A DNA stretch of 33,863 bases from Gracilibacteraceae bacterium (GTDB lineage Bacteria; Bacillota; Desulfitobacteriia; Desulfitobacteriales; Syntrophobotulaceae): assembly GCA_031266805.1 (NCBI GenBank), contig JAISAH010000112.1:1-33863 (forward strand). The letters are read 5' to 3'. Position 1 is the first letter of the stretch. Every line of letters starts with the position of its first letter. Both the position numbers and the translations under genes were made by a program. The notes under the pieces were generated by a model. That model ran no database searches. It saw nothing but the letters and a program-made list of their open reading frames with translations, and had not been told where the DNA came from. This document shows, one piece after another, positions 1,276 to 22,858 of this stretch.

Positions 1276-1297
1276 AATGCTCTGTAACTTTTAATTG

Positions 1298-2422: not shown

Positions 2423-2935
2423 TTAGTTCGGTATGGTCAATTCCTCATAGGCGATTTCCACGGACTCGATCGCCACTTCGCTCGTGCTGGCGTTAAGATC
2501 AGGTCCCGTGTATTTCGATACCCAGGCGTCCTGAAGGATCCAGATCGCCCCTGTCTTTCCGGTGGTCGTCTCGACTATGGTGCTCGGAGCGCCGGCTGTG
2601 ATATCGATCAGCTCTATCGTCACGTTATGGCGCGGGGTGCCCTTTTCCCGCCGCTCACTCACGCAGGCGACAACCCAGTCTTTGAAAGGCTGCGAGCGGG
2701 TGTAGCCCATTTTCAGAGTCAAATTACCATGTTTTACCAGTCCTTGGATCTTGACCGGCGCGAGACTGTTGGCATTGCCCTGCCGGAACTCGATGATATC
2801 GACCGAAGCGTCGATACCCGTTACTTCGCTAAAAGCGGCCACGCCGCTGACGCTGTCCACCGTGACCAGGAAATTCATCTTGGTCAGCGGATAATACAAA
2901 GCTACCGAATTTTTGGTTTCGTCACCCTCTGCCAT
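2423..2935 (-). CDS. CIS tail tube protein (T4 gp19-like)
   Basis: 170 aa; ATG at 2935 with GGAGGG 7 nt upstream. The sequence has the hallmarks of the Hcp/gp19-like tube family: an N-terminal strand NFLVTVDSVSGVAAFSEVTG, the IIEFRQG segment, KHGNLTLKMGYTRSQPFKDW, and a C-terminal SVEIAYEELTIPN strand. In contractile systems this protein stacks in hexameric rings to form the rigid inner tube that is driven out when the sheath contracts. It directly follows the sheath gene (52 bp gap), the usual order in phage-tail-like particles. The length is a little above the 145-150 aa typical of Pvc1-like tubes. It is likely the major tube; the protein at 1298-1765 is its divergent paralogue. Confidence 0.9.
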   Translation of the reverse strand: MAEGDETKNSVALYYPLTKMNFLVTVDSVSGVAAFSEVTGIDASVDIIEFRQGNANSLAPVKIQGLVKHGNLTLKMGYTRSQPFKDWVVACVSERREKGTPRHNVTIELIDITAGAPSTIVETTTGKTGAIWILQDAWVSKYTGPDLNASTSEVAIESVEIAYEELTIPN

Positions 2936-4751: not shown

Positions 4752-5132
4752 TTAATACAGGACCTTGGTCTGCCCGGGGGAAACGATAGTGAGTGATCCG
4801 CCGTATGCACACAGAAGCTTCGCTTCGCCGGACAATCCCGGCGTGCCGGAAATCAAAGGGCCCTTGCCGCCTATCCAGGTCCCCACGGGCGCCGGGATGC
4901 AGGGCTGCGGCGTCAGAACTCCCAGCGCCGCCGCCGTGGCGGAAGCGACCAGCGGATTGGACACGGTGGTGCAAAGCCCGCAAGGCGATACGGAAGCCAG
5001 CGGGACCGCGTCACTGATAGTGGCCGCCGGCATCCCCCCCGCCAAAACGCCGGCTTTAGCGGCTTTCAGCGTGCCGGGCGCCGTACCGAACGAACAAACA
5101 TATGTCGCGCCGGAAACCACGGCAATTCCCAT
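4752..5132 (-). CDS. PAAR-like spike-tip protein (DUF4280-like)
   Basis: 126 aa from the ATG at 5132, which has AAAGGAGG 6-7 nt upstream; a longer frame back to 5177 overlaps the previous gene and has no such site. The sequence is glycine-, alanine- and proline-rich with no long helices: GATYVCSFGTAPGTLK near the N-terminus, SPCGLCTTVSNP in the middle, and a C-terminal LLCAYGGSLTIVSPGQ. This pattern is that of the PAAR-like DUF4280/DUF4150 proteins, which form the sharp cone at the tip of the VgrG-type spike of contractile systems. Five cysteines may coordinate a metal, as PAAR tips do. No C-terminal effector domain is fused. The gene precedes the sheath gene; the spike trimer gene itself is not in the window. 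Confidence 0.8.
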   Translation of the reverse strand: MGIAVVSGATYVCSFGTAPGTLKAAKAGVLAGGMPAATISDAVPLASVSPCGLCTTVSNPLVASATAAALGVLTPQPCIPAPVGTWIGGKGPLISGTPGLSGEAKLLCAYGGSLTIVSPGQTKVLY

Positions 5133-5145
5133 AAATTTCCTCCTT

Positions 5146-5913
5146 TCATTCCTGCTGTACCGCGCGTAAAAACTCATCCTGATTCCACGCGGCCGGTTTA
5201 TTAAAATCCACCAAGGTGAATTTATCCGTTTCGTTCAGGCGGATCCGCACGATCCAGCGGCTGCCGGCCGCGTTTCTCCGCACCCGGAGCAAGTATTCCC
5301 CCTCCGGACCGGCCAGTCCGGAGACGACGGGGGTCAGGGGCAGATTGACGACGCCTTTGACCGTCAGCGGCCGGTCTGTTTTCAATACGTCGCCTGAGAC
5401 GCGCGTTTCCACCGCAAAGGGGGTGTAGCGGTTCTCGGCGATCTGGACGAGAGCGTAGAGAACGCGGTCAAACTCCAGCCGGTGCGGGTTGAAGACGGTC
5501 AGCCGCCGGCGGCGCGCGTCATAATCTTTGATCAGGCAGGCGCCGTCCCCCGGATTTACAGCGTCTATCGCGCCGAGACCCGGCAGGCGTCCTTCCAGGG
5601 TGTGAAACAACCCCTCGGTGCGCAAACTTTCCAGCGGGATCAATTCCAGACGGAGATCGGGCGGGATGACCCCCGGCTCTTTCAGCCGCACGCGCCGGCG
5701 TATCGGCGCGTAACCGCGGGCGCGCGCCTCCAGATCGTAATCCCGCTCCAGCAGCGCCTGATCCGTATAGATGAAATAACCGTTTGCTTTGCGCTGCGGC
5801 AGTTTTTCCGTCCCGTCGACCAAAAAAGTCACGTCATTTTCGATGCCCCTGCCGTCCGTGGCGTCCGAAAGACGCACCGCCAAAGCTAATTGATGTTTAA
5901 TTACCGCAGGCAC
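5146..5913 (-). CDS. CIS companion protein, beta-rich, next to the DUF4255 gene
   Basis: 255 aa, start GTG at 5913 with AAAGGGGGG about 6 nt upstream (MPAVIKHQLALAVRLSDATD). The order DUF4255-type gene, this gene, PAAR-like gene recurs in Firmicutes CIS clusters as far as I remember, and related proteins begin in the same way. The N-terminal ~100 residues look like a carboxypeptidase-regulatory/Ig-like sandwich (FLVDGTEKLPQRKANGYFIY, then YDLEARARGYAPIRRRVRL). A second beta-rich half follows, with FNPHRLEFDRVLYALVQIAE. No signal peptide, membrane segment or enzyme motif is visible. Its position suggests a structural or cap/baseplate accessory role, but I cannot name the function. It is 20 bp downstream of its neighbour and 13 bp upstream of the next gene. 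Confidence 0.7.
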   Translation of the reverse strand: MPAVIKHQLALAVRLSDATDGRGIENDVTFLVDGTEKLPQRKANGYFIYTDQALLERDYDLEARARGYAPIRRRVRLKEPGVIPPDLRLELIPLESLRTEGLFHTLEGRLPGLGAIDAVNPGDGACLIKDYDARRRRLTVFNPHRLEFDRVLYALVQIAENRYTPFAVETRVSGDVLKTDRPLTVKGVVNLPLTPVVSGLAGPEGEYLLRVRRNAAGSRWIVRIRLNETDKFTLVDFNKPAAWNQDEFLRAVQQE

Positions 5914-5933: not shown

Positions 5934-6521
5934 TTATTCCAGATTCTCGCCCCGCGCGGTGAGCGTGATGATCGCTTCGCGCACCGGCACTGTCTCCACG
6001 ACGATTTCGCTGGAGAGAAAGACCGGGGCCGCTTTATAAAAGAGACTGATCTGGTACGGTTTGCTGATCGCCGACCACACGCGCACTTTTTCCTCCAGCG
6101 CGATCTTGGAGGGCGTGAGGATGACTGGCGCTTCCTCATACTCCAGCCAGGACTGCAGCGTATTCGGGGAAACGGCGTTGCTGTCATTGAGGACCTGGGC
6201 CGCCCGGCCGATAATTTTTTGTATATCGTGCGCCTTCAGGCCCATTTGGGAGGAACCGTTGATAAAAAGCATGTAATACAGGCTGTACGGCTTGGGCGGT
6301 TTTCTCAGGCGCATGCGCCCCGTCCGGATCGGGCCGGAGGCGATCTCCCCCTCCTCGCGGATATCATAGAGGTAGAGACCGAGAATATAGTCCACGTCCT
6401 GCTCCGCCGGCGAGGAAACATCGATATTGTTCGGCGAGGGGATCGGTTCCGGGCACATCCGCTCCCGCAGTATCCTGACAATATAAGCGCTTATATCGGA
6501 AATAATCGGGTAATCAGCCAA
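5934..6521 (-). CDS. DUF4255 / Pvc16-like tube-sheath cap protein
   Basis: 195 aa, start TTG at 6521 (MADYPIISDISAYIVRILRE), supported by AAAGGAG 6 nt upstream. The N-terminal helix followed by SPAEQDVDYILGLYLYDIRE, the RKPPKPYSLYYMLF segment and a C-terminal beta part (YKAAPVFLSSEIV, VREAIITLTARG) match the DUF4255 family, represented by Pvc16/Afp16. In extracellular CIS this protein forms the cap that ends tube and sheath assembly at the distal end. The length is typical (about 190-300 aa). It sits between the secreted 862 aa protein and the 255 aa companion, and marks the point where the run passes from membrane/envelope genes to tail structural genes. Confidence 0.85.
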   Translation of the reverse strand: MADYPIISDISAYIVRILRERMCPEPIPSPNNIDVSSPAEQDVDYILGLYLYDIREEGEIASGPIRTGRMRLRKPPKPYSLYYMLFINGSSQMGLKAHDIQKIIGRAAQVLNDSNAVSPNTLQSWLEYEEAPVILTPSKIALEEKVRVWSAISKPYQISLFYKAAPVFLSSEIVVETVPVREAIITLTARGENLE

Positions 6522-6545: not shown

Positions 6546-9134
6546 TCAGTTGGTCCCGGCCGCGCGTAAAAGACGGCTCAACAGTTCGGCGGCGCAGTTA
6601 TCCGTCTCCGCCGTGACTAAAAACGCGTAATCCGTGCCCGGCGCCGGTTCGCTGCGCAGTCCGAACGTCTCAAAAGTATAATCAACCGGCAGATACAATT
6701 CTTCCCGGTATTTGGCCGGAAAAGCCATGTAGGCTAAATCGTCCGCGCCGGGACCCATGACGATCTCCGTCGAATAAACGGTAAAGAAATAGTAGTCGCC
6801 GCCGCGGGCCAGCGCTCCGCCGTTCAGGTTGCTGTTCCAGACATAGCGCATTTTCAGCTGCGCCGCCACTACGCGGGCAGGGATATAATACTGTCCGTTT
6901 TCTTCCAGATGTTGAAAAACAAGGGGGTTACCGGCTTCCATCTGCCGCTGGGCCTCCCCGCGCGCCGCGGCGGCCAGATTCTCATCCGCCAGCTCCGCGC
7001 CGCAGGCGGCCAGAGCCTGTACCAGCACCGCGCTCTGGGCTTCGGGGCTCAAAGCCGCCGGGCCGCCGCTTTCGCCGAGCACACCGGCGTCAAAGGCCCG
7101 CACCCCGCCGCTGTCGCCGCTGAAATACATATCGGCGGCTTCCTTGGCCGCGGCGGCGGACAATCCGCCGGCCGCCGCCTGATTGTAAGCGTCCCGGTTA
7201 TCCATGATCAGACTTTCCGCCGTAGCGATGGCCGCGGCAAAATCCTCGCGTCCCTCCAAATCGCGCAGCCGCGTCATATCCGCCCGCAGATCTTCCAGCA
7301 GAGGAAAAACCGCGGCGTAATTGGCCGGAAGCAGCCCGCCCAGCGCGTTGATCGCCGCGAGCAGATCATCCATATCGCCCCCGTTCGCGCCGGCGCCGCC
7401 CGCGCCCGCGGCGCTCAGCTCGCTGATCAGGCTTTTGGCGGCGGCGGCGGACTCAACCGCGGCCGCCGCCGCGGAAATACCCGCCGCGCCGCCCGCCCCG
7501 CCCGGCAGATCCGCTATTTGAGCGTCGATATCCGCTATCCGCGCCTGGATCAATTGGGCGGCGGCCAGATCGTCATTATCCAGCGCGGAGAGCAGTTCCG
7601 TCCGCAAAGCGTCTTTTTGCGCCTGCAGCTTATCCGCTTCATTCCCGCCCATGAGTAATTCCACACTGCGCCGCAGACGGGTCAAAAAATCGATATGCTC
7701 GGCCAAGGAGGCGCCGGCGGTCTCGGCAAAGGCGTCGGCCGGGATTGCCGCCGCGTATTCCTCTGTCAGCGCCAGCCGGTCGTCCAGAAAAGCAAGCCCC
7801 CCTTCCCCGTCCAGCCGCAAAACGGCGGCGTTGATGAAAAACTCCAATTCGCTCCGGCTGACCGTCAAGAGATTACGGGCTTTCTGCCTGATGCTGTTCA
7901 GCAGCACGGCGGCGGCGTTCTGCGCCGCGGCCGCGGCGTATTCCGCGTTCTCGCCGCCGGAGAGACCGGCGAGGTAGGCCGCCGCTGCTTCCGGCAGCAG
8001 CCGCTCGTCGAGCAAAACTCTTTCGCCCGTCTGGTCCGCGATCCGGCTGTTTTGGATATTGTCCAACATGACGATTTGCGATACGTCAACGTCGCAGTCG
8101 CCGTGATTGACGCTTTCGGCGTCGGCGATCAGGCGGAGACTGATTTCGTAGCGGGCCGCGGCCATGATCGTCGCGCCGGCGGACAGCATTTGGCCGCTGT
8201 GCAAATTATAAGAAGAAGTGACATTGGAGAGACTGTCGTTGACCGCCGTCTGCAGATTGGAATCACTGGCGCCGGCGGCGCTGGAATCTTCTTCCTCTTC
8301 GTCCTCGCCCTCGCCCTCGTCTTCACCCTCATCCTCGCTCACCGCGTCCGCCAGACTTTGCAAGGAGATGGCTAAATTTTCCAAAGCCCCGTCCAAAATG
8401 CTCATCACTTCCGCCCGGCGGGAGGCGTCAAGCGCCGCCATCACGCTCTGCACCGTATCCACGGCCGCCGGATCCGCGTCATTGGCGGTCAGAACGTCCA
8501 GATAGGCCTGCAGGGCAGCCAGACCCTCGTCGGCAGCCTGGGTGACGTCGTTCCGCACGGATGTGCGGAAAAACCCGGCGATTATCTCTATGCTCCTCCG
8601 GCCAAAATCGCTTTCGCTCTGCAGTTCCCGGGTCAGGTCATACTGGGTTTTGAGCGGCAGGAGTTCTTCCATGGACTCTAGGTCATACGGCGAGTAAATA
8701 TCAAAGATGTTGACGGCGGTGTTCAGGCGCAGATCGTAGGTGACGCCGTCCGATTTTGTGTGATGCGTCAGAAAAAGAGCGGCGATCTCGGCGCCATTGA
8801 CCGGGGCGCCGGCGGTCGTGATATCGGCGAGGGAGGAGGCCGCGGAAATATTGAACCAGACCCCGCCCGCCAGTTCGCTTTTGTAATACAGGCCGTCCTG
8901 TCCCGATTCCTCCGCGGATTGCCGGGCGACGTCATACAAGGTGTCGGTCAAGGCGCTGAGATGGATCAAATGCGTGCCGACGATCAAAGTCGAGTTTTCG
9001 ATCCCGGCGGGATCGATATGGACGGCGGCGTCCTCATTCCAGACGGCGCCCGACGGCGCGACGCTCAGGAGGAGCAAACAGGCGATGACGATCGAGATGC
9101 CGGCGATATTTTTGGCTGCGACTTTTTTCAACAT
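6546..9134 (-). CDS. Large secreted Ala-rich protein with acidic tract and stalk-like C-terminus
   Basis: 862 aa from the ATG at 9134, which has GGAGGA 5 nt upstream; an alternative ATG at 9155 overlaps the previous stop (ATGA) and would add 7 residues. Residues 1-30 are a signal peptide or anchor (AGISIVIACLLLLSVAPSGA). The mature part is Ala/Leu-rich and mainly helical, with a pure Asp/Glu/Gly/Ser run near residues 270-290 and an Ala/Gly-rich low-complexity part around residues 540-590. The C-terminal ~110 residues (YYIPARVVAAQLKMRYVW, then ELYLPVDYTFETFGL) resemble a copper-amine-oxidase N-terminal-like 'stalk' domain, common in exported Firmicutes proteins. I cannot assign a function. Its place within the CIS run suggests an envelope partner, shell or exported cargo. 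Confidence 0.75.
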   Translation of the reverse strand: MLKKVAAKNIAGISIVIACLLLLSVAPSGAVWNEDAAVHIDPAGIENSTLIVGTHLIHLSALTDTLYDVARQSAEESGQDGLYYKSELAGGVWFNISAASSLADITTAGAPVNGAEIAALFLTHHTKSDGVTYDLRLNTAVNIFDIYSPYDLESMEELLPLKTQYDLTRELQSESDFGRRSIEIIAGFFRTSVRNDVTQAADEGLAALQAYLDVLTANDADPAAVDTVQSVMAALDASRRAEVMSILDGALENLAISLQSLADAVSEDEGEDEGEGEDEEEEDSSAAGASDSNLQTAVNDSLSNVTSSYNLHSGQMLSAGATIMAAARYEISLRLIADAESVNHGDCDVDVSQIVMLDNIQNSRIADQTGERVLLDERLLPEAAAAYLAGLSGGENAEYAAAAAQNAAAVLLNSIRQKARNLLTVSRSELEFFINAAVLRLDGEGGLAFLDDRLALTEEYAAAIPADAFAETAGASLAEHIDFLTRLRRSVELLMGGNEADKLQAQKDALRTELLSALDNDDLAAAQLIQARIADIDAQIADLPGGAGGAAGISAAAAAVESAAAAKSLISELSAAGAGGAGANGGDMDDLLAAINALGGLLPANYAAVFPLLEDLRADMTRLRDLEGREDFAAAIATAESLIMDNRDAYNQAAAGGLSAAAAKEAADMYFSGDSGGVRAFDAGVLGESGGPAALSPEAQSAVLVQALAACGAELADENLAAAARGEAQRQMEAGNPLVFQHLEENGQYYIPARVVAAQLKMRYVWNSNLNGGALARGGDYYFFTVYSTEIVMGPGADDLAYMAFPAKYREELYLPVDYTFETFGLRSEPAPGTDYAFLVTAETDNCAAELLSRLLRAAGTN
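8285..8338. repeat. Short simple-sequence tract coding an acidic run
   Basis: The plus strand is an almost pure C/T tract built from TCC/TCG/CTC triplets with repeated CGCCCTCG units; on the coding (minus) strand it gives GAG/GAC/GGC codons for a Glu/Asp/Gly run. Such short triplet repeats can change length by slippage without breaking the frame. Confidence 0.6.
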
Positions 9135-9151
9135 GCGATCCTCCTCTCTCC

Positions 9152-11230
9152 TCATTGCTCGGCCAGCAAGGTCAGCGTCTCCGGCTCGAAGCGGGCGGTA
9201 TAAAGCAGTGTCTGATCCTGACTGTAAAACTCCGCCCGCACGGAGGACAGATCCGACAGCAGCGCCAGATAGCGGAATGGCTGACTGACCGGCGCCGGCT
9301 CGGTGTTCAGCAAACTGGCGCCGTCCGCTGTCAGCCGGTAAAAGACCGCTTCCGGCTCCCGCGGCGTCAGCGTGATTTCCGTGCGATCCAAGCCGCCGCT
9401 TCGCTCCGCCCGAACGGTGTAAGTCCCGACCACGCGCGGCGCCGGCGCGGACGGCGCCGCGCGGCCCTCGATCGGCAGCACGTCGCTGGGCACGGTCGTA
9501 TCTATTTCACACTCGGCAACAAATTCGCCGGCGTAAAATAACCTGACCGTCAGACGTTTCGTGGCGCCGTAATCCAGGACCAGATGGCGCAGCTCCCACG
9601 CGATCGGGGTGCGGGCGCCAATCAGCGTCCCTTCATACAGGATCTCAAACTCGTCTATGGCCGGCTCGTAATCGTCGGGGATCTGCAGGCCGAAGGCAAA
9701 AACCATGTCGGCCACATCGGAATAAATATGGTATGTGGGCAGATTAAGCCGGCCGCCCTCGCCCAATCCGCCGATTCCGCCGCCCGTTTCCTCGCTCTCG
9801 CCTTCGTCCGCCCAACTGAGACCGCTCTGGCCCACGTCGGCGCTGAAACCCGTCTCCGTCATCAGACGGCTGGCGCCGCCGCAGGTCAAACGGTCAAAAT
9901 CGACTAGCAGCTCATAGTAAGAAGCCAGCAGTTCGATCGCTTCCGCCTGCTGCTCCTCATAATCCGTCTGTTTGTCCTGCACTTCGGAAAATTCCGCCTT
10001 ACCCAGCCGGTTCAATTCCACGAGGCGGTCCAAGGCGGTCTTTGTTTCCCCTACGGCGTCCAGCAGCGACTCGGCGGAATTTCTGGCCGTCACGAGCGTT
10101 TCATAGGATGAGGCTATTTCCTTGCGCAGATCCCGCTCGGTCGTCTCCCGGTCCCGGAGCGCCGACAGATAATCGAGCGCGGCTGTATAAAGCGCGTACA
10201 TTTCATCCTGAATATAGCGGGTGCCGTCGATCTGCCCTTTCAGCCACTCGCGGGAAAAAGTAAAAAACAAAATGCGCTTGCGCCCGGCCCACGGGGCGTC
10301 AAAATTGCTCGTCATCGCGTCGTAAGCCATCCGGAAAGCGGCGTTGTCCACATCCACGCCGCCGCGGGCCTGATTGAGAAACGTGGAAATCGCGTTGACC
10401 TTGCCCCCGTATTGGCGGCGATATAAAGACTCATATGAGTTCAGGCTGATCCAGGCGATAGACTCCGCCATGCGGGCGGCAAAATAACGGTGGTCGTTCC
10501 GCAAAGTGTATTCCGTCAGCGTCTCCAGCTGCTCGCGCGTTATGTTCAGAATTTTCAGTGGATTCTTGAACACATAGCCCGTGCTGACGTCCAAGCGGAT
10601 CTGATCCCCCAATTCCTGCTTATCGGTTTCAAAAGCGCGCATATTCAAAGCCAGCTCCGCTTCCAGCGCCTTGACCGCTCCGGCGCCGGCGTCGATATCC
10701 GCCTGTTTAGCCTGTCCGAGCAGCAGGCGGTTCTGGTTGCGCTCCAGAGAACTCCGGGCCGCGGCCAGCCTTTTTTCCGTAAAAGCGATTTTCTCCTGCC
10801 CGATATAAACGCGCGTAAAGAGCTTCTCCGCCTTCTGCCTGACTTCGAACGTCAGATCGTCCTTTTCATGCTGCAGCGTGTCGATCTCGATCTGCAAAGT
10901 CAAAGGCGTCGCCGAAAGATCATATTCCAGCACCAGATCCAGTGGTTCCGGAAATTTGAAACTGAGCAGCGGCGACCAGCGGAAGGTGGCCATGTTCTTG
11001 GCTTTGATCCGCGCCCCCTCGACGGCCTCCGTATACTTGATCCGTTTCAGGATCAATTCGCTGTTCTTTTTTTTGATCGCGGTATCAGCCGCCAAAGCGA
11101 GGTTCTGCGCCTGTTCCGCGACGAGGATCTTCGGCGGTGCGGCCGCCTCCGCCGCACTGGGCGGATACAGCGGCATGAGCGTTAAAATGCTCAGAAGCAA
11201 AGCGGCGGCGACCGTATTTCTCACGCGCAC
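9152..11230 (-). CDS. Exported TolC-like coiled-coil protein with C-terminal beta domains
   Basis: 692 aa from GTG at 11230, preceded by AAAGGGGGG 5-6 nt upstream; the open frame runs back to 11389 but that extension overlaps the previous gene. Residues 1-29 are a clear signal peptide. From about 30 to 445 it has long helices with TolC/outer-membrane-factor character: KAEKLFTRVYIGQEKIAFTE, AAARSSLERNQNRLLLGQAK, and the second half-repeat with LLDAVGETKTALDRLVELNR and GKAEFSEVQDKQTDYEEQQA. The spacing mimics the tandem helical hairpins of TolC. A Gly-rich linker (GGGIGGLGEGG) leads to ~180 residues of beta-rich sequence that ordinary TolC lacks. If it really inserts in an outer membrane it implies a diderm cell; it might instead be a periplasmic scaffold. 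It overlaps nothing and is 17 bp from the next start. Confidence 0.7.
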   Translation of the reverse strand: MRVRNTVAAALLLSILTLMPLYPPSAAEAAAPPKILVAEQAQNLALAADTAIKKKNSELILKRIKYTEAVEGARIKAKNMATFRWSPLLSFKFPEPLDLVLEYDLSATPLTLQIEIDTLQHEKDDLTFEVRQKAEKLFTRVYIGQEKIAFTEKRLAAARSSLERNQNRLLLGQAKQADIDAGAGAVKALEAELALNMRAFETDKQELGDQIRLDVSTGYVFKNPLKILNITREQLETLTEYTLRNDHRYFAARMAESIAWISLNSYESLYRRQYGGKVNAISTFLNQARGGVDVDNAAFRMAYDAMTSNFDAPWAGRKRILFFTFSREWLKGQIDGTRYIQDEMYALYTAALDYLSALRDRETTERDLRKEIASSYETLVTARNSAESLLDAVGETKTALDRLVELNRLGKAEFSEVQDKQTDYEEQQAEAIELLASYYELLVDFDRLTCGGASRLMTETGFSADVGQSGLSWADEGESEETGGGIGGLGEGGRLNLPTYHIYSDVADMVFAFGLQIPDDYEPAIDEFEILYEGTLIGARTPIAWELRHLVLDYGATKRLTVRLFYAGEFVAECEIDTTVPSDVLPIEGRAAPSAPAPRVVGTYTVRAERSGGLDRTEITLTPREPEAVFYRLTADGASLLNTEPAPVSQPFRYLALLSDLSSVRAEFYSQDQTLLYTARFEPETLTLLAEQ

Positions 11231-11249
11231 AAATATCCCCCCTTTCCCC

Positions 11250-12458
11250 CTACTCGGCGCTGTAAAACAGGAATCCCGGCGCTGCGCCGGACTCGCAATA
11301 AAAAGTGTAGACAAAACCGTCGCTGGGAAAAACGTAGATATACATCCGCCGGTTCTCATCATAGGAATCGACCGAGTACACATCCTCAAACCCGGACCGC
11401 GTTTCCATGGCGACCGGGAGCAAAGCGTCCTGCTCCGACTGATTCAGCGCCACAGCGTCCGGCAAAGTCAGCCAGGTCTCGCCGAGATAGGCCGGCGCGC
11501 CCAAAACGGCTTTGATATCGCTGATCGCGCTCAGTTCCGCGCCGCCCTTGGCAAAAATATCGGTCAGGACGTAGACCCGCCCGATCTTCCATTCCTCATC
11601 CAAGGACTGTTCTCCGCTCAGCGACTCATATACCGCGTTTATATCGCTCATATAGACCGCGTATTCATCCGCCCCGTTATAGGAAACGACCCGGCCGCTG
11701 TACATCGCCGCCGCGGCAGCCGTCGTTTTGCCGATAAATTCCTCAAAAACGATCCGATTTGCCTGGAAATTTCCGGAAAAAATCAAATTGCCGCCGGCGT
11801 CAGAGAGCATGCCCGCGCCCTGCCGATTGCCGCTGACAAATTCGCCCTCGTATTCCGCCGTGCCTTCCGGCCGGTAGTAAGTTCCGCCGCCCTGAAAAAG
11901 ATTTTGGGAAAACGTCCCCTTGTACCGCACCGCCCCGCCCGGATAATAGGTTTCGCCCTGCCCCTCGTACATGTTGTTCTCGAACTCGCCGACATACATC
12001 AGTCCGCCGTCCGGGTCATAGAGCATCCCTGACCCGTTGGCCCGGCCCTTGGCGACCATGCCCACAAAAGCCGTCCGATCCGCCGCGTCGAGGATCCGCG
12101 CCTCGCCGCTGTAAAATTTGAGAGCCAGCGACTGATAGCGGTAAGTGGGTATCGCGCCGCCCCCCTCCCCCTCCCGCGGTGAAAGCGGCGACATGGCGTA
12201 CACATACCAGACGGCCATCACCCCGACGATCACGATGACGGCGAAGGCGAGACGCTTGCTGACCAGCCATCGGAGCATCCCGTAATAATCGTTCTTGTGC
12301 CGCGGCCGGAAGTCGAACAGCGTCGTAAAGAAAGCGCGCAGCATCTGGACGCCTTTGGTGCGCCAGAATGTCGGGCTGAGCCAGTAGCGCGCCTTGGTCC
12401 ACAGGGAGACAAAGCGGGCGCGCAGCGTAGTTATCAAGGTTGAGAATAACTGGTTCAT
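11250..12458 (-). CDS. Membrane-anchored MORN-repeat protein
   Basis: 402 aa, ATG at 12458 with GGAGG 12 nt upstream. About 70 basic residues at the N-terminus with amphipathic stretches precede one strong membrane helix around residues 72-92 (LAFAVIVIVGVMAVWYVYAM). Then come tandem MORN repeats (roughly residues 130-235): GRANGSGMLYDPDGGLMYVG, NNMYEGQGETYYPGGAVRYK, NLFQGGGTYYRPEGTAEYEG, NRQGAGMLSDAGGNLIFSG. MORN arrays form a beta-meander sheet that usually binds partners or membranes. A mixed alpha/beta region follows and ends with DGFVYTFYCESGAAPGFLFY. By orientation rules the basic N-terminus should be cytoplasmic and the repeats external. It is coded between two other membrane/exported proteins, which suggests a shared envelope complex for the injection system; that is inference. 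Confidence 0.85.
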   Translation of the reverse strand: MNQLFSTLITTLRARFVSLWTKARYWLSPTFWRTKGVQMLRAFFTTLFDFRPRHKNDYYGMLRWLVSKRLAFAVIVIVGVMAVWYVYAMSPLSPREGEGGGAIPTYRYQSLALKFYSGEARILDAADRTAFVGMVAKGRANGSGMLYDPDGGLMYVGEFENNMYEGQGETYYPGGAVRYKGTFSQNLFQGGGTYYRPEGTAEYEGEFVSGNRQGAGMLSDAGGNLIFSGNFQANRIVFEEFIGKTTAAAAAMYSGRVVSYNGADEYAVYMSDINAVYESLSGEQSLDEEWKIGRVYVLTDIFAKGGAELSAISDIKAVLGAPAYLGETWLTLPDAVALNQSEQDALLPVAMETRSGFEDVYSVDSYDENRRMYIYVFPSDGFVYTFYCESGAAPGFLFYSAE

Positions 12459-12494
12459 GCTTCGTGTTTTCCTCCGCGGCGGCGGTTTCGCCTG

Positions 12495-14732
12495 TTACTG
12501 TTCCATGCCGAAAATACTGTAATTTATCGTGGAAAAATCCGTCCGGTTAAACAGGCGCTCACAGGAGAAAATATACCATTTGGCTACCCCGTCTCCCGGA
12601 CAGTTCTTGAATATCTCCGAAAAAAGATTGCGCGCCAGGTAGAAATCATTCGTATAATAAAAGCGGATCGCCTGCTGAAATTTTTGGTTATACTGCTCGC
12701 GCAGATTCCTCTCGCTTTCGCGGTAGACGTCCAGCACCTCGTACAGCTTGATATTATGCTGTTCGTCCGAGGAGGCGACGTAACCGATATACCGCGTGGA
12801 AACGCTGTCTGTCAGAGTTTCCGCACACCCCTCCGTCACCAGCAGTTTGACGCCCAGACCGGCGAGTTTGACCGACATCTTAGCCAGAAGCCCCAGTTCA
12901 TATGACGACATAAAACTGATGGCCCTGTTTTCCTGTCCCGATACGCCGTATTCATAGCCGGCGTGGTGCAAAAGCAGCATGAATTCCGGCTGGGGTTCGC
13001 CTCGGGCCGCTTCGGCGGACTCTGTGGCCAGCCTGACGCCCATGCGCACGCCGTCTGTGGCGCCGGCCGGAAAAAGCAGGCGGAAATCCGTCAGCGAAAA
13101 CCACGTGGAAAGAAAGACGGCGCTGCCCGACGCCGCGGTGTAGATATGCCGGAACGCGGTAAAAACAAACTCCAGAAAACGGCGGTGACTCTCGCCGAAG
13201 CGTTTGGAAGCGCCGCGCGGCATCGTGGTCACTAGGCCGACCACACCGCTGCCCGCCGCGACGTCCCCGTATTCGATCTCCATCAAATTCGCGCGGCTTA
13301 ACAGGCGGTCCAGATCCTGCGGCATGAAGCGGCGATAACTGTTCATGGCGGAATTCATCTCATACCCGCGAATGGAAAGCGACAGGCAGATTTCCTGCAT
13401 CGCCCGCTGAACGCGGCCGACTTCGCCAAACGCGACGCGAATGCCGTCGTCCCAAACCATGCGGGCGGCGACGTCACTCATCTGACGCGGCAAACGCCGG
13501 AGCGGACTCAGCCAGTAAACGGTCAAAATCAGGCAGATGAGGTAAAACCCCAGTCCCAGTAAAGCGCATCGCGCGAGCGCCTGATAAAAAGCCGCCGCCG
13601 CGTCGCCGCCGCTCTCCCAGACGATCTGGGCGGCGATCCCCACCGCGCCAAAAACCAAAATCAACGTCAGGCAAAGCGGCAGCAAAATCAAGCGCCAAAA
13701 CAGCGAGGGGGCAAACGAGCAGGCAGCGGCGGCAAAAACAAAGCAAGCCACGGCGATGATAATGATCCCCGCGGGCGAAAAAGCGGCGGCCAAACTGAAG
13801 CGGAGATTGGCGCCCACGCCAGAGACGAGCGGGATCGGATCGCCGAAACTCGCGCCGGCGTAGCGCAGGAGCGCGGCGCCGCCGTCCGGGGCGGCGGCCA
13901 GCGCGACAAAACCGTCAGCCAAAGGAAGCCCGGCCGTTATCGTTTCCGAGCGCGCCGGCGGCACGGCGTGCGCGGGCAAAGAGTTCAAGGTGAAATGCGC
14001 GGAATTGGCCGCTGCGTCCACAAAAAACAGATTGTCGCCTCCGGCCCATAGCGCCGCCGTCTCCCCGCCCGTAAACTCCGTTTTGGCGCCGGCGGCGTTA
14101 AACGCCTGCACGCTGCCGTCAGACAGGGCGCAGTATAAATATTTACCGCTGTAAACGGCTGACCGGATCAAAGTGTCCGCTGGCGCGTCAACCGCCAGCG
14201 CCAACGTTCCGGCCGCGCCGCCGTCCGCGTTGACCGCGTAAGCGTAAGCACGGCGTCCGTCCGCCTCACGGTAACTCAGATATATCCGCTCGCCGTCGGC
14301 GCTGAGACGAAAACCGCCGCCGCGAAAAGTCAGCCGCGGCACCGCCGCCGCCGCTATCCCCGTCTCCGGGTCGAGCCGCCAGATCTGCCGCCGAACCGTT
14401 TCGCCGCCCTCCGGCCCATCTTCGCCCGCGCCCGCCTCCCGCAAGAGCCAGAGCTGGCCGCCGCTCCAGAGCAGATCGGCGACAGCGTAACGCCGGCCGC
14501 TTTCATCAACGGCTTTATCCGTATAAACAAAACCGACTTGCCCTCGCTCGTCCACGCCGAAAACAAAGGAACCATAGCTCCTGTTCACCGTGAAATAGCA
14601 GACGGATCCGTCCGGCGCCGCCGCGATCCGCGGCTCGGCTTCGGCCAGTGACGGCGCCGCCCACGGATTGAAGAGCGCGAATCCGAACAAGGCGGCGACT
14701 ATGACGACAGCGAGGATGAGAGCCTTCTTCAT
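12495..14732 (-). CDS. Membrane beta-propeller protein with a degenerate class III cyclase domain
   Basis: 745 aa from ATG at 14732 (AAAGG upstream); an upstream TTG at 14738 is less likely. An N-terminal signal/anchor (residues 3-22) is followed by ~280 residues of WD/PQQ-like beta-propeller sequence, presumably extracytoplasmic. Three membrane helices lie near residues 320-340, 345-370 and 387-410. After a HAMP-like linker, residues ~460-670 align with the class III adenylate cyclase fold: SYRRFMPQDLDRLL, then GDVAAGSGVVGLVTTMPRGA where FxDIRGFT is expected, and LLLHHAGYEYGVSGQENRAI where the HxGxxxxGxxG block lies. The two metal-binding Asp residues are not visible, so catalysis is unlikely. 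A TPR-like tail (RFYYTNDFYLARNLFSEIF) ends it, as in many real cyclases. Probably a sensor or scaffold. Confidence 0.75.
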   Translation of the reverse strand: MKKALILAVVIVAALFGFALFNPWAAPSLAEAEPRIAAAPDGSVCYFTVNRSYGSFVFGVDERGQVGFVYTDKAVDESGRRYAVADLLWSGGQLWLLREAGAGEDGPEGGETVRRQIWRLDPETGIAAAAVPRLTFRGGGFRLSADGERIYLSYREADGRRAYAYAVNADGGAAGTLALAVDAPADTLIRSAVYSGKYLYCALSDGSVQAFNAAGAKTEFTGGETAALWAGGDNLFFVDAAANSAHFTLNSLPAHAVPPARSETITAGLPLADGFVALAAAPDGGAALLRYAGASFGDPIPLVSGVGANLRFSLAAAFSPAGIIIIAVACFVFAAAACSFAPSLFWRLILLPLCLTLILVFGAVGIAAQIVWESGGDAAAAFYQALARCALLGLGFYLICLILTVYWLSPLRRLPRQMSDVAARMVWDDGIRVAFGEVGRVQRAMQEICLSLSIRGYEMNSAMNSYRRFMPQDLDRLLSRANLMEIEYGDVAAGSGVVGLVTTMPRGASKRFGESHRRFLEFVFTAFRHIYTAASGSAVFLSTWFSLTDFRLLFPAGATDGVRMGVRLATESAEAARGEPQPEFMLLLHHAGYEYGVSGQENRAISFMSSYELGLLAKMSVKLAGLGVKLLVTEGCAETLTDSVSTRYIGYVASSDEQHNIKLYEVLDVYRESERNLREQYNQKFQQAIRFYYTNDFYLARNLFSEIFKNCPGDGVAKWYIFSCERLFNRTDFSTINYSIFGMEQ

Positions 14733-14753
14733 TCCCAAACCTTTCCGGACAAA

Positions 14754-15596
14754 TCAGCGCAGAGAGCGCTCGCCGATAATGTCAAAACATTTTTCAAACA
14801 GGCGAAAGACCGGGACCTCACCGAAAATAAGCTGCGAAACAAGAACTGTTAAGGCGAAAACCGCCGCCGCCGCCGAAGCGGCCAGCAGGACGGCAAAAAA
14901 CCTGTCTTTATTGCGCCGCCATAATCCCCCTGCTTTTTCCTTGATATTCCTTTTTTGGGGAATTTCGGTGATCTTTATGTCGTGATACAGTTCGGGCAGA
15001 CTGCGGAAAGAATTATGGACCAGTTTTTTCCGCATCAGTTCTGCGCTTTTCAAGTGGCCGCGCAGCGAGAATAAGGATAACAGCATATCGGCGCAGAGAC
15101 AGGCGCAGACGGCTTCGCCGTTTTCCTCGCTCAGATCGGCCAGATCAAAATACGGCGCGAAAAATACGGTCCCGTCTTTCCGCAGATGGATATGCTTCTG
15201 TTTCAGGGCCAGCGCCAAGAGCGGAAAAGGCAGCGGCGACGAGAGGCAGGTCAGCACGAGACCGACGCTCACGGTCTCCCAATCCCGGGCCGTGAGGATC
15301 TGTCCGGGGGCAAAGAGATCCAGCCGTCTTTCCTCATGGTAATCAAACACATAGCACAGCAAGGTGTTTTGCGCAAAACAAGCGATATAAGGCCGCGCGC
15401 CGTCCGCCGCCGCCCGCCGGGAGTTTTCAAAAACCGTCACCAGTTTTTTGGCCGTTTTTTTATTGTTTACTGTCAGGAGCGTATAAAAAGCGTCCACAGG
15501 CGAACGAGAGTTCCGGCAGACAAAAACCGCGTTGTCCGGCCCGGTGAAAACTTCCCGCACGGGCTCCAGAACCATATCGCCGGCGTAAAAAATCAT
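14754..15596 (-). CDS. Single-span membrane protein, possible pseudokinase
   Basis: 280 aa, ATG at 15596; the nearest AGGT is very close and a further GAGG lies 11 nt upstream, so the start is only moderately sure. Residues 1-215 are cytoplasmic-looking. The stretch ALKQKHIHLRKDGTVFFAPY followed by FDLADL has the outline of a protein kinase catalytic loop and DFG region, but without the catalytic Asp and Asn. This is reminiscent of the pseudokinase part of EssB/YukC-type secretion proteins. One membrane helix (FFAVLLAASAAAAVFALTVL) lies near residues 231-255, followed by a short outside tail. It lies 11 bp after the 597 aa gene and 21 bp before the degenerate-cyclase gene. The kinase-like reading is from motif shape only and could be wrong. 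Confidence 0.6.
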   Translation of the reverse strand: MIFYAGDMVLEPVREVFTGPDNAVFVCRNSRSPVDAFYTLLTVNNKKTAKKLVTVFENSRRAAADGARPYIACFAQNTLLCYVFDYHEERRLDLFAPGQILTARDWETVSVGLVLTCLSSPLPFPLLALALKQKHIHLRKDGTVFFAPYFDLADLSEENGEAVCACLCADMLLSLFSLRGHLKSAELMRKKLVHNSFRSLPELYHDIKITEIPQKRNIKEKAGGLWRRNKDRFFAVLLAASAAAAVFALTVLVSQLIFGEVPVFRLFEKCFDIIGERSLR

Positions 15597-15607
15597 ACCT
15601 CACGACC

Positions 15608-17401
15608 TCAAGTTCTTTCATCCTCGTTCTCTTTGGTGAGTTCTTTTTTTACCACCGCGTAGGCATAAGAGCTGACAGCGGGCATGTCGGCGCATGATAT
15701 ACGTATTTCGTAAACTCCCTCCCGCGAAGGCGAGGTATATACGCCGTCCGTGGTAATCTGCCCTGAATTCTTTTCCGTGAGTTCGTAGGTCAGCGTGCAG
15801 GGTTCCATATTTTTGAAAGTCACGGCAAAAAAGTGCGTTTCCCTCATGCCCATCACTATGGTCGGCGTCAGCGCCGCGACGCTCATATCCGCCGTCCGGC
15901 GCGGCAGCAATTTGTCGTCGCCGAAAGGCAGTTTGGCCGCCACCCAGCGCAGCACGATCACCGCGAAATTCGTCTGCCGCGTGAGCGAGGCGGCGATGAC
16001 AAAACTGCCGCGCTCCGCGTAGACTTTTACCGCTGTGCGCGCGAAAGCAATCTGCGGGTTTTCTCCGGCGAACAACTCGGCGTCGCCGTAGATCGACATT
16101 TTTTCGGGCCTTCCCTCCCGCCCCGCTTCGACGATATAGTCAAAACCCACGTCCACATGGATGTTGCCGCTGCCGAGCCCGTGCATGATCTCATCGGAAA
16201 AGAACACTTCCCCTTTGCGGGGCGAGGAACCGAGCGGTATTTCGCAAACGCCCGTGGCGTAATACGGCTCCCGCGGCGAAGTCCTGTCCGGGACCGGCGC
16301 GGGGGGGTCTTCCGCGGTCATAGGCGCGGCGGAGCGGCGGCCGGTAAAATAAGAGGCGTACTCCCGGCGGAGTTTTTCCGCACCCATCCGGCGAATATAG
16401 TTTTTGCGCTCTTCAATTTTATCCACGATGTAATCGTTTTTGCTCCGCTGCAGCAGCAATTCCGCCAAGCACACCGCGTCCGCGTCCGCCGCCCCTAGCG
16501 TCGCTTCCAAATTGACGCGCCCGACGGCCTGCTCGAGCAATTCATGCACCGGCATATCCACCACATTCACTTTGAGCATGAGATCGCCGGCCGGCGGTTT
16601 GGGCTCGCCGTCAACGGTGAAACGGAGCAAAGAAGATTTGCCCAGCAGGAAAGACTCGGGCGCCGGATGGCCCTGGGCCTCCAGCACAAAACCAAATCTC
16701 TCCTCCTCGCCCCGCTCGATGGCGACGTCCTCCGCTTTGACCGCCAGCAAATGCTCGCCTTTATCATTCGTAAAGGCCGGCGCGTGGATCGTGCAGTCAA
16801 TTGACAGGAGCTTAGGCGTCTCGGAGAGTTTGCGCGCGGCGATATATCCCCGCACTCGCTCGCCGCAGCTGACATTGCAGGGGGCTACGATCTCGACCGC
16901 GTAATCGCCGTCCGCGTATAATTCGGATCTGGCCAAAAACTCCGTGTCCGCCAGCGGCGCGGCGGCGCCCGGTTCACTCAGAAACAGTTCCCATCCCTCG
17001 CGGACGCGGTTCATCTCGTATTCCGCGTCAGCCCGCTCGCCGCGCGCGACGGAATAAGCCGGGTGGACTGACTCCTCCCGGTAGCGCAGCATCAAAAGCG
17101 CCCGCTCTCCCGTGATGGACTCAAACCCGCTGATGGACGACAGTTTGCGAATCACCGCGCTTTCCAGCACGATCTCTCGCCCCGCTCCGTCTATGGCCGC
17201 CCCGGATTCCACGATGACGGAAACGTCGTCCAGATTATACACCCCAAGTCCGCAAACAACGCCGGCCCCGAACATCAAGGCGTTCAAAAAACGCCTTTTG
17301 TTGTTCAGATACATCTGCTCCGACAAAAAATCCGAGGACGTCAGCAGTTTGCCCACATAGAAACGGTTTCTTTCAAATGGCAGCAGTTGCTTGTTTTCCA
17401 T
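15608..17401 (-). CDS. Conserved CIS-cluster protein, first gene of the CIS part
   Basis: 597 aa from ATG at 17401, chosen because GAGGG lies 6 nt upstream; the ATG at 17407 would abut it. The N-terminus LLPFERNRFYVGKLLTSSDF, then YLNNKRRFLNALMFGAGVVC, is one I associate with proteins coded in contractile injection clusters of Gram-positive-type bacteria; I know no formal function. Residues ~60-240 are beta-rich with a self-contained fold (SGAAIDGAGREIVLESAVIR). A helical part around 285-350 includes LLLQRSKNDYIVDKIEERKN. The C-terminal ~100 residues look like an Ig-like domain (GVYTSPSREGVYEIRISCAD). There is no signal peptide or membrane helix. A candidate promoter lies just upstream, so this gene may open the CIS transcript. 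Confidence 0.7.
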   Translation of the reverse strand: MENKQLLPFERNRFYVGKLLTSSDFLSEQMYLNNKRRFLNALMFGAGVVCGLGVYNLDDVSVIVESGAAIDGAGREIVLESAVIRKLSSISGFESITGERALLMLRYREESVHPAYSVARGERADAEYEMNRVREGWELFLSEPGAAAPLADTEFLARSELYADGDYAVEIVAPCNVSCGERVRGYIAARKLSETPKLLSIDCTIHAPAFTNDKGEHLLAVKAEDVAIERGEEERFGFVLEAQGHPAPESFLLGKSSLLRFTVDGEPKPPAGDLMLKVNVVDMPVHELLEQAVGRVNLEATLGAADADAVCLAELLLQRSKNDYIVDKIEERKNYIRRMGAEKLRREYASYFTGRRSAAPMTAEDPPAPVPDRTSPREPYYATGVCEIPLGSSPRKGEVFFSDEIMHGLGSGNIHVDVGFDYIVEAGREGRPEKMSIYGDAELFAGENPQIAFARTAVKVYAERGSFVIAASLTRQTNFAVIVLRWVAAKLPFGDDKLLPRRTADMSVAALTPTIVMGMRETHFFAVTFKNMEPCTLTYELTEKNSGQITTDGVYTSPSREGVYEIRISCADMPAVSSYAYAVVKKELTKENEDERT

Positions 17402-17445
17402 ACTCATCCCTCATCGTCAGCTTTTCCCTTTTGTCATACACCGCG

Positions 17446-17481: not shown

Positions 17482-20043
17482 CTAAAGATTTTCTAAAGAC
17501 TTCACCGCGTTTTTGGCCATGGTCACCACGTTTTTCCCGTGTTTTTCGTCGTAGCGCACATAGTCCATCAGCGTTCTGACCATATAGATCCCCAAACCAC
17601 CGATCTCGCGCTTTTCTGCGGGCAAGGCGGTGTCTGGGCTGGGCCGCGTGAGCGGGTTGTACGGCGTACCGCTGTCTTCGACTGTGACGACGACGCGGTT
17701 CGCCTTGCAGGAACAGGTCACTGTGGCCGAGCCTCCGCCCTGAGGGTAGGCATAGCGGGCAATATTGACAAAAACCTCCTCCAGCGCCACTTGCGGCGCG
17801 GCGCTCTCCGCCTCGGGAAACCCGGCCTCCTCCATGCAGGCAGCCAAGAAAGCCGTGACCGCGCCCAAATTGCGCGTATCCGCCGCGACAGTCAATTTTT
17901 TGCCGGCGGCGGCCCCCTTATAGAGCAGAACGAGCATGGTGATATCATCCGCCTGTTCCGCGCCGCGCGTGAACAAAGATACGCTCTCCCGCATTTTTTC
18001 CACGCAGTCCGCGGACAGAGCGCTGTCAGGGACGAGGACGTTCAAATCCTCCAATATTCTTTTTTCAGAAAAAAGTTCGCCCGCCGCGTCATTCGCTTCA
18101 CTCACGCCGTCGGTGTAGAGGAAGATCATATCGCCCGGCAGCAGCCGCGTACTCATGGCCGTATATTTGATGTTTTCCAGCCCGCCTAGGACGAACCCCG
18201 GCTCGACATTAAGCCAAGCGAAGCCGTTGCCGCTCCGCCGCAGCGCCGGCGGGTTATGGCCGGCGTTAACATAGGTAAACAGGCCCGTCTCCGTTTCCAG
18301 CACGCCCGCGAAAGCCGTCACAAACATGGTCTCCTCGTTGCGCTCCGCCAATTGGTTGTTGACGGTATAAAAGACCTGCTCCAGATCTTGCTGGAGCTGC
18401 ATTTGATTGCGCAGCAAAGTTTTGGCCACGACCATAAAGAGAGCCGCCGGCATGCTCTTGCCCGACACGTCCGCCACGATTACGCCGAGATGGGTTTCGT
18501 CCAGCAGGAAAAAATCATAGAAATCGCCGCCCACTTCCCGCGCCGGATGCATCAGGGCGTACATATCAAACTCATTTCTGTCCGGGAACGGCGGCATGGG
18601 CGGAAGCATGCTGGCCTGGATCTTTGTGGCTATATTGAGTTCCGCGGCGATGCGTTCTTTTTCCGCCATCGCCTCGGCCAAATTCCGGATATGTTCTTCC
18701 AGCCGCTGGGTCATGGCGTTGAAAGCCTGAGCCAGCTGCCCTATTTCATCATTGGAGCCTACGGTTATCACAGCGTCCAGATTGCCGGCGCTTACTTCCC
18801 GCACGCCTTGATTCAAACTGATGATCGGGCCGGTGATCCGCCGAGCGAAACGGAGCGAGAGAGCCACCGCCGCCAGAACAGCCAAGAGACTGACGGTGAG
18901 CAGCAAAAAAGAGGTGAGCGTAATATTCTCGTTCATGGCCTGTTCTGTCGAATCGTGCAGCGCGCTTATCTGGCGCCGCATGTCTTCCACCGGCGCCATC
19001 GCGTCCTTCTGGGCGACGACGACGCCGACCGACCAATTGTTTACGCCGAGCGGCGCATAACCCACATAAACGTCTTCCCCGTCCAGATTCGCCCGCCGGA
19101 CGCCGATTTGTCCGCCCGTCATCCGCTCCACCAGTTCGGCGGCGCCTTCCTCGTTGCCATATTTTTCCAATAAAAGATTGCCCCACTCATCCGTTTCATA
19201 CTTCGTCAGCCGGGGCGACATCATGATCTCGCCTTCGGCATTCAACAAAATAGCGTAGCCCGCTCCGCCGATATTCGTTTGGTCTATTACCGCGCGGATA
19301 TTGTCCAGCACGGCGCCGCAAGCGGCCACGCCCTTGAGTCTGGTCACGCCGCCCTCCGTGAGATAGAACGGCATGGAGCAGGACAGGCTGAGACCGCGGC
19401 CCGCCGAGTCCAAAAAAACGTCCGACCAATAGAGCCCGTTCTTTTCTTTCGCGCCGATGTACCAGGGGCGGGTGGTCGGGTCATAGTTCCTGTTTTCCGG
19501 GCCGGCCGCGTTTTTATCCACGGAGATAAAATAGCCGGAGTCCACGCCTATATAGTTGGCGTTGACGCCGATGTCCGTCACGAGGATGCCGCGCAGGGCG
19601 TCCTGCACGTTGGCGGCCAGATAGACTTCATCTTGGACGGAGGACAGCTCGACGCCGGGAGCGGTGCGGAGATGCGGCAGCGGGACGTTTTCCTGACCGG
19701 CCCGCAAATAATCAATCCGGCGCGGTTTGAACTCGTCCGGATGGGCAAAAATATATTCCGCCGCGCTTGCGGCGTAGCGCGTCTGGCCCTCGATAGCCGC
19801 CAGTTTTTCGCTGATGAGGGCGGCTTTATCCTCGGCGACTGTTTGCAGTTCATGTTCTATGATGCCGCCCAGCTCCTCCGCGCTTTGCGAAGCGACTTGC
19901 GCGCCCAGATCGTCCACTCCCCTGTTGATCCAGGCGCGCATATTGAAAACGCCGTACAGGCACACGGCGCTCATCAGCAGCAGGGCGCCCAGCGACAGGG
20001 ATATGAGGGTAAACAGCACTCTGTTTTTGATCGTGGTAAACAT
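17482..20043 (-). CDS. dCache-HAMP-SpoIIE phosphatase with C-terminal HATPase domain
   Basis: 853 aa from ATG at 20043, 2 bp after the GNAT stop. Layout: membrane helix (5-28); extracytoplasmic dCache sensor to ~345 with YDPTTRPWYIGAKEKNGLYW; second helix (~377-398); HAMP (~400-452, SNDEIGQLAQAFNAM); coiled coil; PPM/SpoIIE phosphatase (~490-710) with the metal motifs REVGGDFYD, ADVSGKSMPAALFM, NAGHNPP, LYTDGVSEA and ADDITML all intact; and an anti-sigma-type ATPase (~720-853) with N-box EEVFVNIARYAY, DSGTPYNP and GGLGIYMVRTL, also intact. In partner switching, SpoIIE-like phosphatases dephosphorylate a STAS antagonist and the ATPase domain acts as the opposing Ser/Thr kinase. The matching STAS gene lies upstream in the same run, so this is probably the input receptor for that circuit. 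Confidence 0.92.
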   Translation of the reverse strand: MFTTIKNRVLFTLISLSLGALLLMSAVCLYGVFNMRAWINRGVDDLGAQVASQSAEELGGIIEHELQTVAEDKAALISEKLAAIEGQTRYAASAAEYIFAHPDEFKPRRIDYLRAGQENVPLPHLRTAPGVELSSVQDEVYLAANVQDALRGILVTDIGVNANYIGVDSGYFISVDKNAAGPENRNYDPTTRPWYIGAKEKNGLYWSDVFLDSAGRGLSLSCSMPFYLTEGGVTRLKGVAACGAVLDNIRAVIDQTNIGGAGYAILLNAEGEIMMSPRLTKYETDEWGNLLLEKYGNEEGAAELVERMTGGQIGVRRANLDGEDVYVGYAPLGVNNWSVGVVVAQKDAMAPVEDMRRQISALHDSTEQAMNENITLTSFLLLTVSLLAVLAAVALSLRFARRITGPIISLNQGVREVSAGNLDAVITVGSNDEIGQLAQAFNAMTQRLEEHIRNLAEAMAEKERIAAELNIATKIQASMLPPMPPFPDRNEFDMYALMHPAREVGGDFYDFFLLDETHLGVIVADVSGKSMPAALFMVVAKTLLRNQMQLQQDLEQVFYTVNNQLAERNEETMFVTAFAGVLETETGLFTYVNAGHNPPALRRSGNGFAWLNVEPGFVLGGLENIKYTAMSTRLLPGDMIFLYTDGVSEANDAAGELFSEKRILEDLNVLVPDSALSADCVEKMRESVSLFTRGAEQADDITMLVLLYKGAAAGKKLTVAADTRNLGAVTAFLAACMEEAGFPEAESAAPQVALEEVFVNIARYAYPQGGGSATVTCSCKANRVVVTVEDSGTPYNPLTRPSPDTALPAEKREIGGLGIYMVRTLMDYVRYDEKHGKNVVTMAKNAVKSLENL

Positions 20044-20045
20044 CT

Positions 20046-21056: not shown

Positions 21057-21071
21057 GGCGTTTACTCCTTG

Positions 21072-22853: not shown

Positions 22854-22858
22854 GGAAT

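Follow-up and report, generated by a model that had tools for sequence, protein, structure and literature searches.

The sequence analysed here, hereafter the window, is a stretch of 33,863 nt of a Gracilibacteraceae bacterium genome (GCA_031266805.1, contig JAISAH010000112.1, positions 1-33,863), which carries a part of the gene cluster for a contractile injection system (CIS). Within this cluster five genes, referred to below as the cassette, encode a pseudokinase, a receptor-like protein with a propeller and a pseudocyclase domain, a MORN protein, a TolC-like protein and a secreted protein of 869 aa. They are flanked by a CIS13-family gene upstream and by a Pvc16/Cis16-type cap gene downstream, all on the minus strand (Table 1). 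No description of this cassette was found in the literature searched, which covered few subscription papers.

Composition of the five-gene cassette

The intergenic distances from the CIS13 gene through the fifth gene of the cassette are 11, 15, 36, ~19 and -4 bp, and on account of these gaps the five genes are read as one operon. The 280-aa protein encoded directly after CIS13 gave no Pfam match, nor was a kinase match obtained with Pfam in any of its 38 homologues; a profile search against the Protein Data Bank (PDB) returned chance or low-complexity matches only and no relative of known structure. In its AlphaFold model (pLDDT 88.6) residues 1-215 (window ~15596-14952) adopt a protein-kinase fold (Foldseek 1.9e-7), and the VIA search with this model gave Z 13.8 with a root-mean-square deviation (rmsd) of 3.3 over 199 residues, Bacillus subtilis YabT and Staphylococcus aureus PknB being retrieved at Z 13.3. 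Since the VAIK (beta-3) Lys and the HRD (catalytic-loop) Asp are absent, and not conserved across the homologues either, the protein was assigned as a pseudokinase. Judging by the model it is bitopic, the kinase fold being followed by one transmembrane (TM) helix at ~230-252 and by an outside tail of only ~28 residues. It should be added that its cysteines C27, C117, C164 and C168 are nearly invariant.

The 747-aa receptor (AlphaFold pLDDT 85.1) is arranged as a signal anchor, a beta-propeller, TM helices at 308-426, a HAMP-like linker, a cyclase-like domain and an end resembling tetratricopeptide repeats (TPR). The propeller, residues 28-305 (~14657-13824), is NHL-like (Z 18.3, rmsd 3.2, 237 residues) and would be extracellular, while residues 470-673 (~13331-12720) adopt the class III adenylyl cyclase fold in the model (Z 16.1, rmsd 3.0, 196 residues; Foldseek 4e-8). 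HAMP was recognised in 14 out of 35 receptor homologues, and one distant homologue gave a weak match to Guanylate_cyc (0.0015). Neither the metal-binding Asp pair nor the transition-state Asn/Arg residues are retained in the window protein or in those homologues that were displayed alongside it, and for this reason we regard the domain as a pseudocyclase: as modelled, the receptor holds a cyclase fold and is not a cyclase enzyme. In a distant homologue (L028:10429-14106, genome G065) HAMP is accompanied by three CWB2 cell-wall-binding domains (E 5.9e-59).

MORN repeats in the 402-aa protein were detected with Pfam PF02493 (5e-10, 39.1 bits against a cut-off of 22.5), and a PDB profile search with the family retrieved MORN structures. 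According to an alignment of 28 members, a basic N-terminal tail (~70 aa) is followed by one TM helix (~71-92), the repeats (~131-230) and a conserved C-terminal domain; the tail is predicted to be cytoplasmic and the repeats extracellular. In the list of open reading frames the TolC-like one begins with a TTG at 11389, inside the MORN gene, whereas its orthologues start at a GTG near 11230. The encoded protein matches the OEP family of Pfam at 2.4e-6, above the Pfam cut-off, and a search with the family profile retrieved solved structures of TolC at 3e-5, aligned over both TolC repeats, which places it in the two-repeat family; an N-terminal hydrophobic signal is present in 30 of 33 homologues. 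The 869-aa protein has a signal peptide and a C-terminal domain matching Cu_amine_oxidN1 at 0.0013 (1.7e-12 in the distant homologue from L018), with chance or low-complexity matches only in the PDB profile search. In L128 the TolC-like and 869-aa proteins form one polypeptide of 1558 aa, and the distance matrices of the two families correlate at r=0.94; the 869-aa protein is therefore a likely partner of the TolC-like one.

The initial annotation, made from the window letters, had proposed four consecutive genes for proteins with membrane anchors or export signals, and a fifth for a secreted protein, within a CIS cluster, with possible pseudokinase, propeller/pseudocyclase, MORN and TolC-like domains. 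The gene arrangement is indeed present, and all these domains were confirmed by folds, lost residues and Pfam or profile matches.

Table 1. CIS-cluster genes identified in the window, in order of transcription
Positions	Strand	Product	Length	Basis
15608-17407	-	CIS13-family protein, encoded first in the block; putative TssK-like adaptor attached to the baseplate	599 aa	NF053767
14754-15596	-	Predicted bitopic pseudokinase	280 aa	AlphaFold model, Foldseek/VIA
12495-14738	-	Receptor-like membrane protein (propeller/pseudocyclase, as modelled)	747 aa	AlphaFold model, fold searches
11250-12458	-	MORN protein, one TM helix	402 aa	Pfam MORN
9152-11230	-	Secreted TolC-family protein, extra C-terminal region	~692 aa	OEP Pfam, orthologue start
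6546-9155	-	Secreted protein, weak Cu_amine_oxidN1-like C-terminal domain	869 aa	Pfam, signal peptide
5934-6521	-	Pvc16/Cis16 N-terminal domain protein (CIS cap), adjoins the cassette end		Pvc16_N 9.4e-29
4752-5177	-	DUF4280 PAAR-like protein		Pfam/PHROGs matches
2988-4694	-	CIS sheath		Pfam/PHROGs matches
2423-2935	-	CIS tube		Pfam/PHROGs matches
1986-2354	-	Tail-assembly chaperone-like protein, phrog_508		Pfam/PHROGs matches
1298-1765	-	Second tube-like protein		Pfam/PHROGs matches

Conservation and linkage to injection system genes

An alignment of CIS13 was scanned against 84,980 species genomes, which yielded 510 related stretches; the best 80 were kept for locus counts, a choice that favours close relatives and under-samples the most divergent CIS13 systems. 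In these 80 loci CIS13 is followed downstream by the pseudokinase in 78, the receptor in 69, the MORN gene in 66, the TolC-like gene in 65 and the gene for the secreted protein in 55, many of the loci without the full cassette ending at a contig or flank edge. The recurring order is CIS13-pseudokinase-propeller-MORN-TolC-secreted-Cis16, on one strand and with median gaps of 4-33 bp. The five cassette genes show dN/dS values of 0.18-0.24 against a congener, which, together with the recurrence of this order in ~80 loci, argues against a chance assembly. Furthermore, the distance matrices of CIS13 and the pseudokinase correlate at r=0.91; taken with the conserved order, the short gaps and the purifying selection, this co-variation leads us to treat the block as one unit. 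Its carriers are mostly Lachnospiraceae and Oscillospiraceae, the nearest to the window being termite-gut genomes of the Gracilibacteraceae type.

Occurrence of the cassette away from CIS genes, which the initial annotation had named as evidence that would speak against its proposal, was looked for in 299 genomes sampled across the phylum and, for the pseudokinase, in 299 Lachnospiraceae, and no genome with the pseudokinase or a cassette-type MORN protein lacked CIS13. Five genomes of the phylum sample hold the cassette-type MORN protein and four the pseudokinase, every one of them with CIS13 (5/5 and 4/4); among the Lachnospiraceae the pseudokinase profile matched 15 genomes and adjoined CIS13 in all 15. 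Seven CIS13-positive, pseudokinase-negative genomes were inspected, and all seven carry in the same slot a gene for ~280-290 aa with a C-terminal TM helix (~236-245), followed by a MORN gene. A sheath gene was found in 14 of the 15 genomes checked, the exception being a fragmented assembly that holds baseplate genes. Two genomes of the phylum sample, G176 and G262, have a divergent CIS13 without the MORN protein or pseudokinase.

MORN profile matches in 24 further genomes were rejected as generic MORN repeats that do not cover the cassette-specific N-terminus. As for TolC, full-length matches of ~690 aa within the 299-genome sample were confined to two CIS carriers. Matches of ~390 aa were not counted as cassette members; ~48 genomes of the sample without the full-length protein, many of them presumably monoderm, carry such shorter (mostly ~390 aa) TolC-family-like proteins.

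The composition of the cassette varies between loci. The TolC-like and secreted proteins are missing or replaced in many of them, the receptor gene sits elsewhere in the cluster in some and is missing from others (L114, L116), and a minimal form, CIS13-pseudokinase-MORN with or without a short TolC-like protein of single-repeat size, was seen in L114, L116 and L129-L134. The minimal core of the system is accordingly CIS13-pseudokinase-MORN, and the receptor, TolC-like and secreted proteins are its variable components.

The window stops at a contig edge within the CIS cluster, and the remaining CIS genes are found in the first part of another contig of this genome, C125: two CIS_tube genes and those for the hub, an OB-fold spike, Cis11, Cis12, Tail_P2_I and an AAA ATPase. 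At the edge itself (60-1277, minus strand) there is a conserved CIS-linked gene without known family, whose counterpart in genome G297 encodes 621 aa (L111:17496-19358), and the chaperone-like protein (1986-2354) ends in a CPDC zinc-ribbon-like motif. Large proteins with a Q/E-rich start and no confident family match are encoded near the CIS cluster ends (L127:5651-7948 on C125; L121:13283-16498 in G297) and are candidates for CIS cargo. Directly upstream of CIS13 (17482-23167, minus strand) lies a partner-switching set of a SpoIIE-type phosphatase with HAMP/dCache and HATPase domains, GNAT, a MATE-family transporter fused with HATPase_c_2 and STAS, the MATE fusion (21072-22853, minus strand) being an unusual combination. 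The congener G004 has other genes in place of this set; SpoIIE-like genes occur beside the CIS also in L059, L074, L130, L131 and L133, and a STAS gene lies within the G297 cluster (L121:11700-11996).

Proposed anchoring and firing control, and alternative explanations

The initial annotation had placed the cassette in a diderm envelope, and this was not borne out. Omp85, the sole outer-membrane marker searched (genes for lipopolysaccharide were not), was found in none of the 31 genomes comprising that of the window and 30 relatives, with positive controls detected. Most carriers belong to the Lachnospiraceae and Oscillospiraceae, which are monoderm. A TolC-like protein of such organisms would probably reside outside the context of any outer membrane. 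Trimeric TolC has a lumen of ~35 angstrom, too narrow for a CIS inner tube, which makes a central TolC conduit unlikely; the TolC-like and secreted proteins are moreover accessory, many loci lacking them or having others in their place, which argues in the same direction. We consider the TolC-like protein probably to be a wall strut or peripheral collar instead of an outer-membrane channel.

In type VI secretion systems (T6SS) TssK is the adaptor that joins the baseplate to the membrane complex. The CIS13 protein of the window matches NF053767 CIS13_fam at 1.9e-22 over residues 11-145, below the full-length cut-off of the family, and this N-terminal domain was present in all 25 homologues tested; a weak profile match (0.063) was also obtained to the N-terminus of the crown protein All3314 of the thylakoid-anchored CIS. 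A 2026 catalogue describes eBAP3-5 domains as baseplate attachment modules, with eBAP3 proteins resembling TssK and reported in Bacillota, and Tail_P2_I proteins resembling TssG (PMC12923769). CIS13 of the present loci may be equated with eBAP3, and by virtue of the likeness of the latter to the T6SS adaptor the CIS13-pseudokinase-MORN core can be read as an adaptor with its membrane receptor.

The best explanation of these data, and in our estimate a reasonably probable one, is that the cassette encodes an envelope-anchored complex for docking and firing control of the CIS in monoderm Bacillota, similar in role to that of T6SS and built from unrelated parts. Of the anchoring proposal made by the initial annotation, the T6SS-like role in association with CIS genes is thereby retained and the diderm setting given up, docking itself being inferred. 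In this scheme the N-terminal domain of a CIS13 trimer would rest on the baseplate, in the manner of eBAP3/TssK-like proteins, and the two proteins of the invariant core, the pseudokinase through its kinase-fold domain and the MORN protein through its cytoplasmic tail, would hold the body of CIS13 at the cytoplasmic membrane. On the outer side, the propeller protein may bind or sense a cue (wall, ligand or contact), which could be relayed via the TM helices and HAMP-like linker to the dead cyclase/TPR platform, and the latter might serve as a scaffold or gate for the baseplate. Struts or a collar through the peptidoglycan wall would be provided by the extracellular MORN domain, joined in many lineages by the TolC-like protein and the 869-aa protein. 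The predicted pseudokinase, pseudocyclase and propeller folds with their lost active sites would fit scaffolding. Rather more tentatively, as somewhat less than an even prospect, we propose that the TolC-fold protein, pseudokinase, pseudocyclase receptor and MORN protein form the trans-envelope complex of a genuine cell-anchored T6SS-like weapon, with which Gram-positive Bacillota of gut and environment cross their wall without an outer membrane.

Several points weigh against this explanation. Profile comparison of CIS13 gave no TssK match, and its likeness to TssK comes from the published eBAP3 and from a reading of the N-terminal motif, as opposed to a computed match; the distance-matrix correlations given above include shared ancestry; and the barrel segments of the TolC-like protein, judging by repeat spacing, are not obviously lost and are hard to place where there is no outer membrane. 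Ordinary export or efflux, by a channel that stands in the CIS operon by chance or exports CIS cargo, would accommodate the TolC-family assignment and the shorter TolC-family-like proteins that many genomes of the phylum encode away from CIS. It is nonetheless highly improbable: no pump or periplasmic adaptor gene was found within the block, Omp85 was not detected, full-length matches in the 299-genome phylum sample are limited to the two CIS carriers mentioned, and linkage to CIS13 is strict.

The cassette might alternatively be mainly a sensor or checkpoint, in which firing is licensed by the receptor and the pseudokinase once they perceive stress or a signal from the envelope, the CIS particles being otherwise free and recruited only at firing, possibly for self-lysis. 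The receptor-like architecture with HAMP, the SpoIIE phosphatase, STAS and HATPase genes beside several of these CIS, and the precedent of CisA in a monoderm (PMC12237407) favour such a role, but the invariant core consists of the pseudokinase and MORN protein while the receptor is absent from some loci, and the secreted TolC-like and 869-aa proteins along with the CWB2 domains suggest a structural wall-spanning element; as the main function we hold it to be unlikely. Some of the data are in keeping with a CisA-like checkpoint on firing, which may operate alongside docking. Finally, proteins with the N-terminal type of CIS13 are catalogued as eBAP3 tail fibres (PMC12923769), so that CIS13 could be an ordinary fibre with which a released particle binds its target, the cassette being a cell-surface system for assembly, release or self-protection. 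This is very unlikely as well, for CIS13 is near-constant in length (~580-630 aa) in cassette loci and alignable to its C-terminus, unlike diversifying fibres, and is invariably followed by the membrane cassette.

The proposed docking complex would address the question of how a CIS could fire outward through the thick Gram-positive wall from a living cell. The conserved, CIS-restricted envelope cassette of the major gut lineages Lachnospiraceae and Oscillospiraceae provides named genes for its study. If docking is true, it bears on T6SS-like antagonism by Gram-positive bacteria in the gut, and dead signalling enzymes and a TolC-fold protein would have been recruited as scaffolds in a monoderm.

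Comparison with known membrane partners of injection systems

Among known systems, the pseudokinase shares its layout with EssB/YukC of the type VII secretion system T7SSb, likewise a Bacillota secretion machine, in which a cytoplasmic pseudokinase (3-206) precedes a TM helix (220-243) and serves as a hub that binds partner domains without catalysis (PMC9600267, PMC10765036). However, YukC has an outside domain of ~140 residues as compared with ~28 in the cassette protein, whose tail is too short for such a domain, and the neighbours of the latter are CIS genes and not EssC. The YukC family was not among the Pfam matches listed for the 38 pseudokinase homologues (E<=5; 25 of 29 families), nor was EssB/YukC among the fold matches listed, which include kinases and do not imply its absence.

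In Streptomyces, also a monoderm, the CIS-linked membrane protein CisA has been proposed both to sense a signal and to recruit the particle (PMC12237407). It is, however, a single bitopic protein, largely unstructured in its cytosolic part and with an outer domain that resembles solute-binding ones, whereas the cassette encodes several proteins, secreted ones included. The haloarchaeal anchor Hbor_38620 likewise serves a CIS of T6SS mode in a monoderm, a conserved membrane protein marking the anchored subset, and the closest bacterial relatives of haloarchaeal Cis11 are from Bacillota; yet anchoring there falls to a single protein, which has six TM helices and a cytoplasmic domain of ~150 residues, and a pseudokinase, MORN or TolC-like protein was not described there (PMC11566945). 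The thylakoid-anchored CIS (tCIS) of Anabaena is membrane-anchored too, and CIS13 shows weak similarity to the N-terminal region of the tCIS crown protein All3314/Cis19, but anchoring of the tCIS is by helices of its own Cis12/Cis13 and a separate membrane complex is not known (PMC8894136).

A parallel in organisation is TssNQOPR of the Bacteroidota T6SSiii (PMC10781749), also a five-protein, CIS-specific envelope complex that is non-homologous to TssJLM, is encoded beside baseplate genes and occurs only with its injection system; the CIS13-pseudokinase-MORN core is comparable to its TssK-TssN linkage. TssNQOPR differs in its diderm host, in an EccD-like TssN and in PKD and vWA domains, and is a biochemically proven complex, that of the cassette being a proposed one. 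No confident Pfam or NCBIfam match to TssJ/L/M or TssN/Q/O/P/R was found in the cassette, the match of one of 35 receptor homologues to TssN (E 0.19) not being significant. That CIS have gained membrane partners more than once is already known from T6SSi, T6SSiii, CisA and Hbor_38620; what is new here is a candidate membrane complex for the CIS of Gram-positive bacteria, which, if it docks the baseplate, would represent another independent CIS membrane complex beside TssJLM and TssNQOPR.

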